From Exiguobacterium marinum DSM 16307 (lineage in GTDB: Bacteria > Bacillota > Bacilli > Exiguobacteriales > Exiguobacteriaceae): a stretch of DNA of 64,000 bases. Positions 13,838 through 59,962 of this stretch are shown one piece after another. The stretch is from positions 132,501-196,500 of the forward strand of contig NZ_KK211189.1 of NCBI RefSeq assembly GCF_000620845.1, in the 5' to 3' direction. Numbering within the stretch: position 1 is the stretch's first letter; each line of letters begins with the position of its first letter. Under the pieces are notes generated by a model. It saw only the letters and a list, made by a program, of their open reading frames with translations, did not search any database and had not been told where the DNA came from. Position numbers and translations under genes: made by a program.

Positions 13838-14866
13838 ATGAAAAAGACATGGCTAGGTGCCGTCGCGGCCGGGACACTTCTACTTGGAGCTTGCGGTAAT
13901 ACCGAAGGAGATAACACAACGGAATCAACGGGCGACAAATTGACGGTGTATGCCTCGACCTTCGCTTTAAAGTCAATAGCTGAAGAAATTGGCGGAGATC
14001 AAGTCAACGTCGAAATGGTCATCCCACCCGGAGCAGACCCGCACACATTTGAACCCACTTCTAAGCAGATGACTCAAATTGCTGAAGCCGATCTCTTTTT
14101 GACGATTGGTCACGATTTAGAGCCTTATGTCGAATCAATGGAGAAGAGTTTAGATGGACAGAACGTCACTTTCGTTAAAACAGCGGAGAACGTGGCGTTG
14201 CTCGATGCAACTGATACCGTTCATGTTCATGAAGAAGATGGTCACACTGAGGATGAGCATGCACATGAAGAAGATGGACACACTGAGGATGAGCATGCAC
14301 ATGAAGAAGATGGACACTCGGAAGACGAGCATGCCCATCACGACCACGGACAATACGACCCTCACGTTTGGCTCGACCCAATGAACGCCGTTACAATGGC
14401 GGAAGCCGTTGAAGCAGCTTTCAGTGAAGAGGCCCCGGACTATAAAGACGAGTTTACGGATCGCTTAAGTGCATTCAAAGAAGAAGCGGACGCCCTAGAT
14501 GGTGAATTGGCAGCAGCGGTCGAAAACGGGACGAAATCAGAACTTCTTGTAACACATGCCGCTTATGGCTATTTAGCTGAACGCTATGGTTTCGAACAAT
14601 TACCAATCGCTGGACTCACACCGTCTGAAGAGCCGTCACAACAAGCTCTTAAACGAATCATCGAAGAGGCTCGCCTTCATGATTTGAACTACATCGCCTT
14701 CGAAAACACGGTCACACCGAAAGTGGCTGAGGTGGTAAAAGAAGAGATTGGCGCAGAGAGCGTAACCATTTATAACTTAGAATCGGTCACAAAAGAACAG
14801 ATGGACAAGAGCTATTTCGACTTGATGCGTGAAAACGTCAAGGCACTTGAGACAGCTTTGAAATAA
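13838..14866 (+). CDS. znuA: Zinc ABC transporter substrate-binding lipoprotein (ZnuA/AdcA type)
   Basis: 342-residue cluster A-I metal-binding protein. The N-terminus is a lipoprotein signal with lipobox LGAC (Cys19), so it is anchored outside the membrane. Metal ligands are suggested by DPHTFEPTSKQM, a His-rich loop at about residues 127-171, QYDPHVWLDPMNA and VTHAAYGYLAERY. The His-rich loop is made of three 12-residue repeats. A Zur-like box upstream supports zinc over manganese. No permease or ATPase gene is adjacent, so it must share a transporter encoded elsewhere. Confidence 0.9.
   Translation: MKKTWLGAVAAGTLLLGACGNTEGDNTTESTGDKLTVYASTFALKSIAEEIGGDQVNVEMVIPPGADPHTFEPTSKQMTQIAEADLFLTIGHDLEPYVESMEKSLDGQNVTFVKTAENVALLDATDTVHVHEEDGHTEDEHAHEEDGHTEDEHAHEEDGHSEDEHAHHDHGQYDPHVWLDPMNAVTMAEAVEAAFSEEAPDYKDEFTDRLSAFKEEADALDGELAAAVENGTKSELLVTHAAYGYLAERYGFEQLPIAGLTPSEEPSQQALKRIIEEARLHDLNYIAFENTVTPKVAEVVKEEIGAESVTIYNLESVTKEQMDKSYFDLMRENVKALETALK
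14231..14338 (+). repeat. Three tandem 36-base repeats inside znuA
   Basis: Units at 14231-14266, 14267-14302 and 14303-14338 each encode EEDGHTEDEHAH or a close variant. Units 1 and 2 differ by one base; unit 3 is more diverged. They form most of the metal-binding His/Asp/Glu loop. Confidence 0.95.
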
Positions 14867-17538: not shown

Positions 17539-17579
17539 AAAAAAAACGAATCAGATTGCTCATCGCAACCCGATTCGTT
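17539..17579 (-). terminator. Terminator of the sulfur oxidoreductase operon
   Basis: Minus strand 15-base stem (17565-17579 with 17545-17559, two G-U pairs), loop of five and an eight-base U-run, shortly after the oxidoreductase stop codon. Confidence 0.9.
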
Positions 17580-17592
17580 AAATATTTCATAT

Positions 17593-20058
17593 TTAGATAA
17601 AGAGGTTCAAGTTGCCGTCTTCTGCTGCGCCAAGATATGCCGCAACACCACCAAGGTCGACCCCCTCGATCAACTCTTCTTCTTTAATGCCCATGACATC
17701 CATCGACATCGTGCAGGCTACCATTCTCACACCTGCTTCTTGCGCTGACTTGATCATCTCTTCGACAGAAGGGACGTTCTTGTCACTCATGACTTTTTTC
17801 ATCATTTTTTGACCGACACCACCGAAGTTCATGTTCGAGAGCGGAAGTTCGCCGGCATGTCCTGGCATCATCATACCGAACATTTTTTCAAGGCCTTGTT
17901 TCTTCACTTCCGGTGCGTCCGGTTTGCGAATGACATTGAGTCCCCAGAATGTGAAGAACATCGTCACGTCTTTACCCATCGCTGCAGCACCTTGCGCAAT
18001 GATGAGGGATGCGAGCGCACGGTCAAGGTCTCCACTGAAGACGACCATTGACGCACCGTCTTTTGTTGGAGCGCCCGCCTGCGGAGCAGCCGGACCTTGT
18101 CCTTTTTGAAGGATGGCTTCGACTCGTCCGTTAACAAATTGTTTCGAGACGAGCTTATTGCCTGTCTTCTTCGCCCACGCTTCGATATCAGCGAAGAATC
18201 CTGGATCACTTGCGAGTACGCGGAGCGTTTCGCCTTCTCCGAGGTCTGCGACTTTCTTATTCACTTCCAGAATTGGTCCCGGGCATTGTAGACCACACGT
18301 GTCTAAAATAACCGCTTCACCGATTGGTGCATTCGTCATCTGTGCTGACTCCTCCTCTACAACAGTTGCTGCAGTTTCATTTGATGTGTTCTCCTCTTCA
18401 AGCGCCTCGAAATCACGATTGATTTGTGACCACGTTTTGTAGCCACCGCTCAAGTTCTTCACTTTGAATCCGTTTTGACGCAAGATTCGTGATGCGAGAT
18501 ATCCACGAAGACCGACTTGGCACGTTACATAAATTGTTTCATTCCGGTCATAGTTGTCTAAGTTTTCACGTAATGAATTCAATGGAACGTTGATTGATCC
18601 TGGAATCTTCCCAAGTTCATGTTCTGATTCGTCACGCACGTCAAGCAATGTCGCTCCATTTTTCACGAGCTCATCGATTTCATCCCAATGTACGACTTCG
18701 TTGTCGCCGAGCACGACGTTCGAAGCGACATAGCCGATCATATTGACCGGATCTTTCGCTGAACTGAATGGTGGAGCGTAACTGAGTTCGAGATCCGGAA
18801 GGTCAAGAACTGTCAAACCACCTTTCATCGCTGTGGCAAGGACATCGATACGTTTGTCGACTCCATTGATGCCGACACCTTGCGCACCGTAAATCTCACC
18901 CGTTGTCGGGTGGAACAAGAGTTTGAGCGAAACTGGTGTCGATCCTGGATAGTACCCTGCGTGCGAACCCGGGTGCACGTGGACGGCTTCATAAGTCTTA
19001 CGAGCCGCTTTCAAACGTTTTTCGTTCCATCCTGTCGATGCGACCGTCATATCAAACACTTTGGCAATTCCTGTTCCCATCGTTCCGTTGTATTTAACGT
19101 CACGACCATTAATGATATCCGCCACAAGACGTCCTTGACGGTTCGCTGGCCATGCGAGTGGTACAACGGTTGGTTCTTGGAAGACATAGTCGAGTACTTC
19201 GACGGCATCTCCGATTGCATAAATATTTTGATCTGATGTGAGCATTTTTTCGTTGACACGAATCGCGCCGCGCGTACCTGTCTCAAGGCCCGCTTCCCGT
19301 GCAATCGTCGATTCAGGGATGACACCGATTGACATGATGACCATATCCGTATCGATGACGCGACCGCTTGTCAAATGTACTTTCTTCCCTTTTTCAGAGA
19401 ATGAAGAAACACCGTCTGATAATTGAAGTTCGACACCGTGAAGGCGCATGTGTTCATGAATTGGAGCGACCATCTCGCGGTCAAGTGGCGTCATGACTTG
19501 GTCTGCCATCTCGACGAGTGTGACGTCAACGCCGCGCTCACGTAAGTTTTCCGCCATCTCAATCCCTATGAAGCCCCCACCGATTACTGTCGCGTGTTTC
19601 GGTGCTTTGTCATCAACATAGCTACGAATTTTATCCGTGTCCGGGATGTTACGTAGTGTGAAAATATCTTCTGCTTCATCGATTCCAGGAATGTTCGGAC
19701 GAATCGGTTTCGCCCCCGGTGATAAAATGAGTACATCATATGACTCATCATACGTTTCACCGGTTTGGACGTGTTTCACCGTCACCGTTTTTTCGTCACG
19801 GTTGATTTTTGTCACTTCCGTCAAGTTGCGGATATCGAGTTGGAAACGTTTGTTCATTCCTTCAACTGTTTGAACGAGCAATTTTTGACGATCTTGAATG
19901 ACGTCTCCGATGTAGTATGGAAGACCACAGTTTGCGAATGAAATATACTCCCCACGGTCGAACATGACAATTTGGTTTTCTTCATTTAAACGACGGAGAC
20001 GTGCTGCTGCAGATGCACCACCTGCTACTCCACCAACGATTACGATTTTTTTACTCAT
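17593..20058 (-). CDS. CoA-disulfide reductase fused to rhodanese, TusA and DsrE domains
   Basis: A four-domain protein of about 821 residues. Residues 1-450 are an FAD/NAD(P)H CoA-disulfide reductase with IVGGVAGGASAAAR and the single redox Cys44 (FANCGLPYY). About 455-555 is a rhodanese domain with active Cys in VTCQVGLRGY. About 575-650 is a TusA/SirA domain with CGLQCPGPI. About 665-821 is a DsrE/DsrF-like domain with a Cys in VACTMSMDVMG. The parts are known from sulfane-sulfur trafficking and persulfide reduction. Start ATG 20058 follows GAGGAGG and overlaps the rhodanese gene. It is controlled with that gene from the CstR-like operator. Confidence 0.92.
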   Translation of the reverse strand: MSKKIVIVGGVAGGASAAARLRRLNEENQIVMFDRGEYISFANCGLPYYIGDVIQDRQKLLVQTVEGMNKRFQLDIRNLTEVTKINRDEKTVTVKHVQTGETYDESYDVLILSPGAKPIRPNIPGIDEAEDIFTLRNIPDTDKIRSYVDDKAPKHATVIGGGFIGIEMAENLRERGVDVTLVEMADQVMTPLDREMVAPIHEHMRLHGVELQLSDGVSSFSEKGKKVHLTSGRVIDTDMVIMSIGVIPESTIAREAGLETGTRGAIRVNEKMLTSDQNIYAIGDAVEVLDYVFQEPTVVPLAWPANRQGRLVADIINGRDVKYNGTMGTGIAKVFDMTVASTGWNEKRLKAARKTYEAVHVHPGSHAGYYPGSTPVSLKLLFHPTTGEIYGAQGVGINGVDKRIDVLATAMKGGLTVLDLPDLELSYAPPFSSAKDPVNMIGYVASNVVLGDNEVVHWDEIDELVKNGATLLDVRDESEHELGKIPGSINVPLNSLRENLDNYDRNETIYVTCQVGLRGYLASRILRQNGFKVKNLSGGYKTWSQINRDFEALEEENTSNETAATVVEEESAQMTNAPIGEAVILDTCGLQCPGPILEVNKKVADLGEGETLRVLASDPGFFADIEAWAKKTGNKLVSKQFVNGRVEAILQKGQGPAAPQAGAPTKDGASMVVFSGDLDRALASLIIAQGAAAMGKDVTMFFTFWGLNVIRKPDAPEVKKQGLEKMFGMMMPGHAGELPLSNMNFGGVGQKMMKKVMSDKNVPSVEEMIKSAQEAGVRMVACTMSMDVMGIKEEELIEGVDLGGVAAYLGAAEDGNLNLFI

Positions 20059-20360
20059 TGTCCATTTCCTCCTCTGACGACTTCTCCTGGCCAACTCATC
20101 AAGCCATCTTCTATATTGACCACTTTATAGCCTTTTGCCTCCATTTGCCAAGTTGCTTGCGTGCTACGTGCACCAGAGCGGCAAAGAACGACATATTCTT
20201 CAGCAGGATCGAGTGTATCAATCCAAGTGGTGATTTCTGATAACGGATAGTTTTTTGCACCTTCGATATGACCTTCTTCAAACTCGTCACGTTCACGTAC
20301 GTCGACGATGTTTACAGGCACTTCAAAGTCCATCTGACGTTTTAAAGCGGATGCTTTCAT
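20055..20360 (-). CDS. Single-domain rhodanese sulfurtransferase
   Basis: 101 residues with the rhodanese active loop VLCRSGARST (Cys as persulfide carrier) and the DVRERDEFEEGHIEGAKN motif. It overlaps the following CoA-disulfide reductase fusion by four bases (ATGA), so the two are translationally coupled. Together they should move and reduce sulfane sulfur in the cytoplasm. Transcription starts from the operator-bearing promoter at 20463-20491. Confidence 0.93.
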   Translation of the reverse strand: MKASALKRQMDFEVPVNIVDVRERDEFEEGHIEGAKNYPLSEITTWIDTLDPAEEYVVLCRSGARSTQATWQMEAKGYKVVNIEDGLMSWPGEVVRGGNGQ

Positions 20361-20462
20361 AACTGATCTACCTTTCCTTTTCGATTCAATCTATACCATT
20401 CGGCTTGGTAGCTGGCGTCCAACAAGTTTGTGATTTGTTGAACATTTCGCTTCCACGTCATT

Positions 20463-20491
20463 AATATACCCCCTTAGGTATTCAAATGCAA
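20463..20491 (-). promoter_or_regulatory. Promoter of the rhodanese operon with CstR-like operator in the spacer
   Basis: Minus strand TTGCAT, 17-base spacer, TATATT. Between and over the -10 lies ATACC-N6-GGTAT (20466-20481) with a C-rich centre, the form expected of CsoR/CstR-family operators. Repressor binding would block polymerase. Confidence 0.75.
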
Positions 20492-20556
20492 GAAATAAGT
20501 TTGACGAAATGTAGAATTTTTCTTCATTGCTCATTCGGACAGTTGATGCTCGACAC

Positions 20557-20572
20557 ATACTCCCCCATGTAT
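20557..20572 (+). promoter_or_regulatory. Second CstR-like operator, upstream of cstR
   Basis: ATAC-N8-GTAT with a C-run centre, the same 16-base span as the site at 20466-20481. It lies 64 bases before the cstR start, within a possible promoter (TCGACA-N17-TAAGAT, 20550-20578). This suggests autoregulation. Confidence 0.62.
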
Positions 20573-20636
20573 TAAGATGAGCCTACACAATAAATAGTTG
20601 GGTAACTGAACAATTTTTACTATAGAGGTGAATGAT

Positions 20637-20903
20637 ATGGAACCGTATGTATACGATGCAAAAGTATTGAATCGCATGAAACGCGTGGAAGGACAAATTC
20701 GCGCCATCATCCGTATGATGGAAGAAGGGAAAGAGTGTCGCGATGTCGTGACGCAATTAAGTGCCGCACGTTCCGCACTCGATCGCGCTTCGACAATCAT
20801 CGTGGCTAAGAATTTAGAGCAGTGCATCATCACAGCTCAGGAAGATGGTGAAGATACGTCAGAAACGGTAGAAGAAGCCATTAAAATGTTGATGAAACGC
20901 TAG
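20637..20903 (+). CDS. cstR: CstR-type persulfide-sensing repressor (CsoR family)
   Basis: 88-residue all-helical CsoR-family repressor. The two conserved cysteines are present (GKECRDVV and NLEQCI). The copper-ligand His found four residues before the second Cys in CsoR is Asn here, as in Staphylococcus CstR. That fits sensing of persulfide/polysulfide rather than copper. It is divergent from the rhodanese/CoA-disulfide reductase operon, with two matching operators in between. ATG 20637 follows AGAGGTG; the GTG three codons earlier lies inside the ribosome site. Confidence 0.88.
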   Translation: MEPYVYDAKVLNRMKRVEGQIRAIIRMMEEGKECRDVVTQLSAARSALDRASTIIVAKNLEQCIITAQEDGEDTSETVEEAIKMLMKR

Positions 20904-20970: not shown

Positions 20971-21402
20971 GTGAACTTCGAAGAAAAAGTAGAATCATTT
21001 AAAGCGCTCGCCGCTGAACGCAATATGACGTTCAAAGAGAGCGACACTGAAACGCACGTCACGTTTTTGACGCGTGAAACAACAAAATCCGGGGCTCAGC
21101 CCGTTATGATTATCGCTTTTAACAAAAAGACGACAGACGCTGAGTTGTACGCTGCGACCGTCACGCACGTCCCAGACTATGTAGAAGATTTACCGATTCT
21201 CAATGCCTTGAACGAGTTCAACCAGGAGTTCAAATACTTCCGCTGCGTACTCGACAGCGATCGTGATGTCACACTCGCATCTACACTCGACCTCGACCTC
21301 GGTTTCTCACCAGAGATTATCTTGCAACATTCATTCATGATGTTCCAAGCGGCCGATGAAGTGAACGAGTACATGCAAAAATTGTATACACAAGTACAAT
21401 AA
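20971..21402 (+). CDS. YbjN domain-containing protein
   Basis: 143 residues. The pattern ILNALNEFNQEFKYFRCVLD, then a run of alternating strands and SPEIILQHSFMMFQAADEV, fits the YbjN fold (type III secretion chaperone-like). Its function in Firmicutes is not known. It starts at GTG with GGGGG nine bases upstream and is 68 bases downstream of cstR, without an obvious terminator between. Confidence 0.6.
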   Translation: MNFEEKVESFKALAAERNMTFKESDTETHVTFLTRETTKSGAQPVMIIAFNKKTTDAELYAATVTHVPDYVEDLPILNALNEFNQEFKYFRCVLDSDRDVTLASTLDLDLGFSPEIILQHSFMMFQAADEVNEYMQKLYTQVQ

Positions 21403-32361: not shown

Positions 32362-32618
32362 AAAAAAAACGCCCTTTGCAATAGATGCAAAGAGACGGGA
32401 ATTCCCGCGGTACCACTCTTCTTGCCTGCATGATGCAGACCGCTTTATGGTGATAACGGTTCCCTCCGGCTACGCCTACTCTCATTTCGGATAGCATCTC
32501 AAAAGTGCGCTTCGCGACGTTTGTCAGCCCGGGCTCTCACCAATCCCCGAATCGCTTTGTTGACCAAATCGTCGTTACTCTCTTTTTCATCGACATTCGT
32601 CTATGCGGTTGAAAAGCA
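32362..32618 (-). promoter_or_regulatory. T-box riboswitch of argS, specifier CGC (Arg)
   Basis: The minus strand carries the T-box core AAGAAGAGTGGTACCGCGG (near 32420-32403), with UGGU in the antiterminator bulge. A terminator hairpin and U-run lie at 32362-32397. In stem I the specifier region reads GAAG-CGC-A (codon at 32508-32510), an arginine codon that matches the downstream gene. Confidence 0.92.
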
Positions 32619-34530: not shown

Positions 34531-34676
34531 CTTTTTATCGAGAGAGACGGAGGGACTGGCCCTATGAAGTCTCGGCAGCGGGTAACCTGTGCCAAATCCA
34601 GCGGGCGTATTGCTCGAAAGATGAAAAGGGTATTTCGCACGAAGGACCTTTTTCTCAGAAAAGGGTCCTTTTTATT
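34531..34676 (+). promoter_or_regulatory. SAM-I riboswitch (S-box)
   Basis: The conserved S-box blocks are in order: ATCGAGAGAGACGGAGGGA, CTGGCCCTATGAAG, CTCGGCAGC, GGTAACCTGTGCCAAATCC and TGCTCGAAAGATGA. They are followed by a terminator hairpin (34642-34653 with 34659-34670) and a U-run. SAM binding should favour termination, switching off the transporter gene when methionine/SAM is plentiful. Confidence 0.95.
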
Positions 34677-59633: not shown

Positions 59634-59845
59634 AAAAAATCCCTATCGATTGAATCGATAGGGACGACAAAGCCGCGGTACCACCCTAGTTACTAGAGAA
59701 TATCTAGTCACTTGATCCGATAACGGGGGACCGCTCAATCACGAGAGCTCGGGAACTGTAATTCGATTCATCTTTTGGGCGTGTTCGCAGCACCACACGC
59801 TCTCTGGGCCATGGAAGATGTCTCTACTTCGGTTCTTTCTTCGCT
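59634..59845 (-). promoter_or_regulatory. T-box riboswitch of phhA, specifier UAC (Tyr)
   Basis: Minus strand: T-box core AACTAGGGTGGTACCGCGG (near 59691-59673), terminator stem TCCCTATCGAT/ATCGATAGGGA with U-run (59634-59664), and stem I closing GAAC (59832-59835) with GTTC (59753-59756). The specifier loop reads GAAT-TAC-A, codon at 59758-59760, tyrosine. The alignment is the same as in the argS T-box. Upstream, 59846-59962 is A/T-rich with GCATA/TATGC repeats and no clear promoter. Confidence 0.92.
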
Positions 59846-59962
59846 TTTCTTACATATTCAATTCTTTATCTTTTATACAGTTATGCTGTTATGCATATAT
59901 GCTTTTAAGCACTAAAGTGACGTCTTGTTAGTTACTGTACCAAAGCTAAACAAAGGCGTCAA

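Follow-up and report, generated by a model that had tools for sequence, protein, structure and literature searches.

Comparative evidence for a probable CstR-repressed persulfide-clearance operon with a four-domain reductase in Exiguobacterium marinum

Repressors of the CstR type, as characterized in PMC9774590, PMC5480029 and PMC9918477, come off the DNA upon linking two of their cysteines through di- to tetrasulfides. In Staphylococcus aureus, according to the accounts given in PMC5480029 and PMC9918477, CstR controls CstA, CstB, SQR and TauE, all encoded in one operon, and sulfur passes within CstA from the rhodanese to the TusA part (PMC9918477). CstR-controlled genes have also been described from Enterococcus faecalis (PMC9405070, PDB 8a56) and, under a CstR-like regulator called YrkD, from Bacillus licheniformis (PMC9918477), and a protein uniting four sulfur-handling domains, BF638R_0572, was described in 2018 from Bacteroides fragilis (PMC6158253). 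Here we analyse a locus in a stretch of 64,000 nucleotides (the window) from contig C2 of the 2.81-Mb, two-contig genome of Exiguobacterium marinum DSM 16307, where a regulator gene stands divergent from an operon for a small rhodanese and a four-domain reductase. With a probability of roughly 0.86, we read this operon as the CstR-repressed persulfide-clearance operon of Exiguobacterium, a functional reading that is well supported by comparison with other genomes and with studied relatives. The features of the locus, as predicted from the sequence, are the following.

17593..20058, minus strand: four-domain persulfide reductase (CoADR/CoAPR, rhodanese, TusA, DrsE_2), 821 amino acids (Pfam)
18730..20049, minus strand: FAD/NAD(P)H CoA-disulfide/persulfide reductase domain, residues 4-443, active-site Cys44 with codon 19927-19929 (Pfam)
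18421..18705, minus strand: fused rhodanese domain, residues 452-546, Cys513 with codon 18520-18522 (Pfam)
18100..18315, minus strand: TusA domain, residues 582-653, Cys592 within CPGP, codon 18283-18285 (Pfam)
17596..18057, minus strand: DrsE_2 domain, residues 668-821, Cys782 with codon 17713-17715 (PF13686, 213 bits)
20055..20360, minus strand: stand-alone rhodanese, 101 amino acids (Pfam)
20637..20903, plus strand: CstR-type repressor, 88 amino acids (Cys34, Asn59, Cys63), divergent from the operon (Pfam PF02583)
20466..20481, minus strand: predicted CstR operator 1, ATACCTAAGGGGGTAT, over the spacer and -10 element of the operon promoter
20463..20491, minus strand: putative operon promoter TTGCAT-N17-TATATT, found by inspection, with a weak -35 element
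20557..20572, plus strand: predicted operator 2, ATACTCCCCCATGTAT, filling the 17-nucleotide spacer of the cstR promoter
20550..20578, plus strand: putative cstR promoter TCGACA-N17-TAAGAT
17545..17579, minus strand: terminator-like hairpin of 15 pairs with a T tract, 3' of the fusion gene

The closest match in architecture is the B. fragilis protein, in which CoA-disulfide reductase (CoADR, residues 14-440), rhodanese (462-540), TusA (589-657) and DsrE (671-825) domains follow one another in the same order and at nearly identical positions; it differs in belonging to another phylum and in that its repressor is BmoR, of the MarR type, instead of CstR. PMC6158253 is the sole account of this architecture that we came across, and its accessible part offers a domain table and mutants and no enzyme assay. 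CstA of S. aureus likewise unites the functions of rhodanese, TusA and DsrE in a single protein, but in the parts of the cst papers available it is not described with the reductase domain that the E. marinum fusion carries. The E. faecalis cst-like operon resembles ours in encoding a CstR-controlled CoA-persulfide reductase (CoAPR) with a rhodanese domain together with stand-alone rhodaneses, as PMC9405070 describes, whereas the solved chain of its CoAPR counts 571 residues and the match stops after the rhodanese, with neither TusA nor DsrE. Two-domain CoADR-rhodanese or Npsr proteins (3icr, 3nta, 6pfz) can similarly be aligned over about residues 2-545 but lack TusA and DrsE_2. The yrk cluster of B. 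licheniformis, as presented in PMC9918477, brings together YrkD with DsrE-, rhodanese- and TusA-type proteins, a persulfide dioxygenase, SQR and NreBC; it is, however, a single cluster of 11 genes with separate carriers, while in E. marinum the carriers are fused to a reductase and the genes, also unlike those of S. aureus, are scattered. The E. marinum protein reads as a CoAPR-type reductase and a CstA grown together around one rhodanese. Among the papers listed in searches of the open-licence literature, none deals with CstR or the four-domain fusion in Exiguobacterium, and the accessible part of the one listed paper on Exiguobacterium proteins (PMC6016940) names only a rhodanese-like hypothetical protein.

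The regulator carries Cys34 and Cys63 at the X and Z positions of the CsoR family and Asn59 at the position of the copper-binding histidine, as in 7mq1, so the Cys-His-Cys copper site of CsoR is absent; the Cys-Cys pair with asparagine, on which an earlier interpretation of the window from its letters alone (the sequence-only reading) had based the assignment to CstR, is therefore confirmed. Its best solved matches are 7mq1 and 7mq2, both deposited under the name CsoR, although PMC9774590 gives 7MQ2 as CstR. When 33 members of the family (26 Asn-type, six His-type and one Tyr-type that was left ungrouped) are aligned, the 26 Asn-type sequences, including the regulator and 7mq1, are separated from the six His-type ones by one branch with support 96/95 and 97% of 200 bootstrap trees, a split to be read with the long branches of the tree and the presence of just one solved CstR on the Asn side in mind. 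The regulator accordingly groups with the known CstR and apart from CsoR and InrS.

The shared Pfam family PF02583, the CsoR name of the best match and the fact that GC runs are, as PMC10318464 reports, common to CsoR-family operators might suggest that the regulator is a copper sensor and the operon part of a copper-stress response. We consider this very unlikely, given Asn59 in place of the histidine ligand and the sulfur enzymes encoded next door. The only other CsoR-family member in the genome served as a control: it is His-type, has the copper sensor CsoR 4m1p as its best solved match, is followed by a gene for a P-type ATPase of the heavy-metal type with an HMA domain, and has no operator within 10 kb around it. 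Because this paralogue adjoins the heavy-metal P-type ATPase gene, the copper role is probably filled elsewhere in the genome, and copper control of the operon was rejected. Immediately 3' of cstR and in the same orientation lies an open reading frame (ORF) of 143 amino acids (20971-21402) with no match in Pfam or NCBIfam.

Both promoters of the locus carry a candidate operator. The window holds a single copy of the pattern ATACC-N6-GGTAT, where shuffled sequence has a mean of 0.03 (at least one occurrence in 3 of 100 shuffles). It had been placed exactly in the promoter spacer of the operon; it does lie over the spacer of TTGCAT-N17-TATATT, but covers only its 3' part and extends over three bases of the -10 element. 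The -35 element of this promoter is weak, TTGCAT matching at three of six positions, which is why the promoter scanner did not list it. A second site of the same span had been noted before cstR and is indeed present in the promoter spacer there, yet it is a looser one, ATAC-N8-GTAT, with arms unlike the 5+5 arms of operator 1. Both operators occur in 19/19 genomes of the genus, their centres being variable. Palindromic operators with a GC run thus stand, as far as sequence tells, at the promoter of the regulator itself and at sulfur-gene promoters, as would be expected of a CstR.

Operator 1 can be followed beyond the genus. We read 70 loci with the fusion, namely 40 from the class outside the order (taken from the 53 genomes there with a full-length fusion) and 30 from within the order, the latter being close relatives and not independent. 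The 700 bp preceding the fusion contain TACC-N6-GGTA in 46 of the 70 (16/40 outside and 30/30 inside the order), compared with four such sites in the 607 kb elsewhere in these loci; a single locus, L061, accounts for two of the four, both in its CstR-rhodanese region. A CsoR-family gene lies in the 5-kb flanks of 12 of the 40 loci outside the order; all 12 are Asn-type, and the site precedes the fusion in 11 of these loci, the twelfth being L061. From a scan that took one genome per species, the best 80 loci were kept, of which 79 are usable for operators (L139, with the reductase part in a different frame, was excluded): the site precedes the fusion in 13 and occurs nine times in 737 kb elsewhere. 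Ten of these loci have a CsoR-family neighbour; the nine with an Asn-type neighbour always have the site, which is missing from the one with a Tyr-type neighbour. Two of the scan loci (L115 and L116) are from Exiguobacterium and hence not independent of the 70-locus set. The locus with the Tyr-type neighbour is from Clostridium (L149, 8820-9110); the regulator has tyrosine at the Asn/His position, no CstR-type operator was found at the locus, and it may represent another type of sensor.

The sister genus presents a different layout. In the 11 loci read for its 19 fusions, operator 1 is always present, 55-67 bp before the fusion. A second Asn-type gene of this genus (45-50% to the E. marinum regulator), found in 16 of the 19 genomes, has TACC-N6-GGTA on both sides and rhodanese genes beyond in 7/7 loci read. 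Because this operator-flanked gene lies away from the fusion, sensor and fusion appear to occupy separate places with matching sites. The Asn-type gene of the sister genus that is closest in sequence to ours (about 56%; L104-L114) stands, in the two loci inspected, beside sigma-factor-like and YceI-like genes, names that come from sequence inspection.

Taken together, the Asn/His split, the phylogeny, the conservation of the operators and the sulfur-gene neighbours here and in other Bacillota lend support to CstR-type control of this sulfane-sulfur operon. Several observations weigh on the other side. The regulator scores below every NCBIfam cut-off; the CoA-disulfide reductase equivalog TIGR03385 reaches 573.2 bits with the fusion, short of its cut-off of 578.8, and the DsrE2 equivalog NF047629 reaches 94 bits where 210 are required, so that the DsrE part can be assigned to the PF13686 family only. 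TACC-N6-GGTA is missing upstream of the fusion in 24/40 class loci outside the order, and the operator is missing in 66 of the 79 usable scan loci. In the sister genus, a profile search of the 1.5-kb flanks of the 11 fusions returned neither a CsoR-family gene nor a separate rhodanese, and the CstR-like gene closest to ours has no strict site within 3.2 kb (11 loci). The B. fragilis fusion is under MarR-type control according to PMC6158253, and we found no expression or binding data for E. marinum. Many fusion loci lack the operator, so the fusion and CstR control do not have to go together; since most other loci have neither the regulator as a neighbour nor the site, CstR control is, judging from these loci, one of several control modes for the fusion enzyme.

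The enzyme itself begins with ATG and comprises 821 residues (an alternative frame from 20094 would give 833 residues with a TTG start), and its start overlaps the end of the stand-alone rhodanese ORF in an ATGA. Downstream, the hairpin with its 15 pairs is one of four terminator-like hairpins in the window, where shuffled sequence has a mean of 3.0. Pfam detects Pyr_redox_2 (residues 4-293), Pyr_redox_dim (333-434), Rhodanese (459-545), TusA (584-652) and DrsE_2 (669-820), all above the curated cut-offs, which bears out the earlier description of one chain with four domains and an intact cysteine (Cys44, Cys513, Cys592 and Cys782) in each. Loss of these cysteines in orthologues, named at that stage as an observation that would speak against the module, was not encountered: all 70 loci, ours among them, keep Cys44, Cys513 and Cys592, and 69 keep Cys782, the exception being a frame that ends ahead of the DrsE_2 domain. 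In a genus-mate (L011, G011:C4:2310615-2313080), an in-frame TAA interrupts the linker that joins TusA to DrsE_2 and leaves 660 residues, which may be a sequencing error or a real truncation. In the predicted structure of the fusion (mean pLDDT 80.8, pTM 0.63), TusA and DrsE_2 are joined by linkers of low confidence (558-580 and 657-668); we used the model for the linkers only, the active-site loop 42-54 being poorly predicted as well. The DrsE_2 part has a solved match in 3pnx (E 5e-33).

A more difficult question is what the reductase half reduces. It could be a true CoA-disulfide reductase that keeps the CoA pool reduced, with the sulfurtransferase domains being secondary: CoADR models are top-scoring, PRK13512 exceeds its cut-off, as does NF010037 (420.6 over 394), and PMC6158253 considers a CoADR role for the B. 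fragilis homologue. On the other hand, the reductase half, whose nearest solved relative is 3icr (residues 2-545, E 4e-239), can be aligned over its full length with CoAPR/Npsr-type persulfide reductases and shows their layout of an FAD/NAD(P)H domain with an active-site cysteine followed by a rhodanese with a cysteine. Moreover, the rhodanese Cys513 is never lost among the loci read, the operators are of the sulfur-stress type, and the reductase-rhodanese of A. fulgidus, as reported in PMC7969121, prefers persulfides and is inactive on CoA disulfide. We therefore regard a primary role in CoA-disulfide reduction as improbable; of the label given by the sequence-only reading the domain stands, whereas the name 'disulfide reductase' may be wrong, as the full alignment with CoAPR/Npsr enzymes suggests. 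E. marinum also encodes a two-domain CoADR-rhodanese paralogue (G000:C2:1085650-1087287), 41% identical; a counterpart is present throughout the 38 genomes of the order, and no CstR operator was found in the 7 kb around the E. marinum copy.

The compactness of the fusion had been singled out as the unusual point of the locus, an idea we had to reject. Full-length fusions occur in 19/19 genomes of the genus (that of L011 being interrupted by TAA; that of genus-mate G001 being 98% identical to ours) and in 38/38 genomes of the order. Of the 398 genomes sampled from the class, 106 show a match at E<=1e-200, and 91 of these matches extend to the last residue. The one-genome-per-species scan encountered at least 593 stretches encoding a relative of the fusion, and a domain search of the best 80 loci, as had been proposed, found the order reductase-rhodanese-TusA-DrsE_2 in one frame in 79. 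These 80 are mostly from Bacillota, the others coming from Bacteroides, Parabacteroides and Marinifilum, Spirochaetales, Omnitrophica, Cloacimonadota, Armatimonadota and Desulfuromonadales. With this wide occurrence and the description from B. fragilis already in print (PMC6158253), the four-domain fusion is common rather than rare, and its parts and the fusion alike are known biology.

Starting from what can be read directly from the locus and its relatives (domains, cysteines, operators, conservation and regulator type), the following mechanism can be envisaged. CstR would sit on both GC-run operators and block both promoters until per- or polysulfides link Cys34 and Cys63 across subunits, upon which it would leave the DNA; the derepressed operon would then yield the small rhodanese and the four-domain reductase. 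In the latter, Cys513 of the rhodanese would accept sulfane sulfur, bound CoA would ferry it to Cys44 beside the FAD, and NAD(P)H would reduce it to H2S. The CstR chemistry, the reductase reaction and the rhodanese-to-TusA transfer (the last from CstA) are carried over from studied relatives; for the reductase step, PMC7969121 and PMC9405070 describe enzymes in which a rhodanese cysteine accepts the sulfur and CoA carries it to the FAD-side cysteine, with persulfide being converted to H2S. TusA and DrsE_2, together with the rhodanese, mirror the make-up of CstA, which we take to lack a reductase domain, and they probably receive sulfane sulfur from the rhodanese or supply it, the role of DrsE_2 and the overall direction of flow being our conjecture. 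Persulfide might be handed along the single chain, as the sequence-only reading envisaged.

The sequence-only reading called this module complete, which proved too strong, oxidation-type genes being located elsewhere in the genome. As operators, the bare patterns were rejected: TACC-N6-GGTA is not enriched genome-wide (21 sites, against 54 for a backwards-pattern control) and neither is ATAC-N8-GTAT (34 against 34), and the only sites to stand out are those in which four C/G letters or more follow one another. Such a run occurs in 6 of the 21 TACC sites, five of which lie at sulfur-gene promoters or, in the case of C2:720146, before two-component genes, the stray sixth (C2:2154637) falling inside an ORF that resembles a penicillin-binding protein (a name from sequence inspection); it also occurs in 5 of the 34 ATAC sites, all at sulfur-gene promoters. 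Besides the two operators of the locus itself, one GC-run site (C2:689294) precedes a lone rhodanese with a hydrophobic N-terminus. Another (C2:2450174) lies between a TauE-rhodanese pair and a rhodanese gene accompanied by an MBL-rhodanese gene of the persulfide-dioxygenase type, and C2:717985 sits where an SQR-like gene and a TsoY-family gene diverge; next to the former, C2:720146 precedes genes for a PAS histidine kinase and a LuxR-type response regulator. The names SQR-like, dioxygenase-like and NreBC-like rest on architecture and on scores below the cut-offs. The TsoY-family membrane protein (L233, 1267-2448) is encoded divergently from the SQR-like gene.

Elsewhere, the site at the dioxygenase-like locus is strict in 24 of the 30 loci read (from 35 matches), including 19/19 in the genus, and is strict or a looser GC-run site in 29 of the 30. 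The SQR-like loci (10 of 10 matches read) have an upstream GC-run site in five and a site past the gene start in seven; the two-component genes behind the SQR-like site were read in E. marinum only. At E<=1e-60, the dioxygenase-like gene occurs in 29 and the SQR-like gene in nine of the 38 genomes of the order, as against 38 with the fusion. One further dioxygenase-like relative (G020:C2:2738-4108) has 12 in-frame stops and is probably a decayed copy. As this GC-run operator also stands in front of genes of the oxidation type at other places of the genome, the CstR regulon is probably scattered, the reductase operon being one limb and its constant core.

These sites also bear on two further interpretations of the enzyme. 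The fusion might chiefly serve sulfur delivery, loading TusA and DrsE_2 for biosynthesis (for example, tRNA thiolation) while the reductase tunes the supply: its TusA domain is the sole TusA match in the genome, and TusA and DsrE proteins are generally known as sulfur carriers in several pathways. Clearance agrees better with repression by a stress-type CstR and with operators that dioxygenase-like and SQR-like genes have in common with the fusion, and although delivery is the least improbable of the alternatives weighed here, we think it unlikely. Sulfur respiration, that is, dissimilatory reduction of elemental sulfur or polysulfide, has been proposed for Npsr relatives (PMC7969121), but the repressor is of the sulfide-detoxification type, oxidation-type genes have the same operator and the operon lacks a respiratory partner gene; it is about as improbable as a copper role.

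Other features of the window stand apart from persulfide clearance. A ZnuA-type zinc-binding protein (13838-14866) has a His-rich stretch that derives from a 36-bp tandem repeat of 3.1 copies (14228-14338), and Rfam reports, above its gathering scores, a SAM riboswitch (34532-34627, plus strand) and T-box leaders (32388-32599 and 59657-59850, both on the minus strand).

If persulfide clearance under CstR is taken as the function of the operon, a broader, tentative picture, for which we would give slightly less than even odds, is that one CstR acting at no fewer than four chromosomal places joins a reductive exit for sulfane sulfur, the four-domain enzyme, with an oxidative exit through the SQR-like and dioxygenase-like proteins, plus the gene of a second, NreBC-like sensor system. 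The reductive arm would be fixed in the order and the oxidative arms optional, and because of this the four domains may form a relay in which it is settled whether the sulfur is reused or reduced. The operator-flanked Asn-type gene of the sister genus and the rhodanese-to-TusA transfer of CstA strengthen such a joint arrangement, in which the fusion would amount to a CoA-persulfide reductase merged with a CstA.

The scattered regulon is a reasonable and testable extension of what the locus itself indicates. Exiguobacterium would thus offer a natural case where one sensor seems to govern the disposal of sulfane sulfur by reduction as well as by oxidation, and a fusion enzyme that is frequent yet little studied would gain a predicted inducer, predicted operators and predicted partners.

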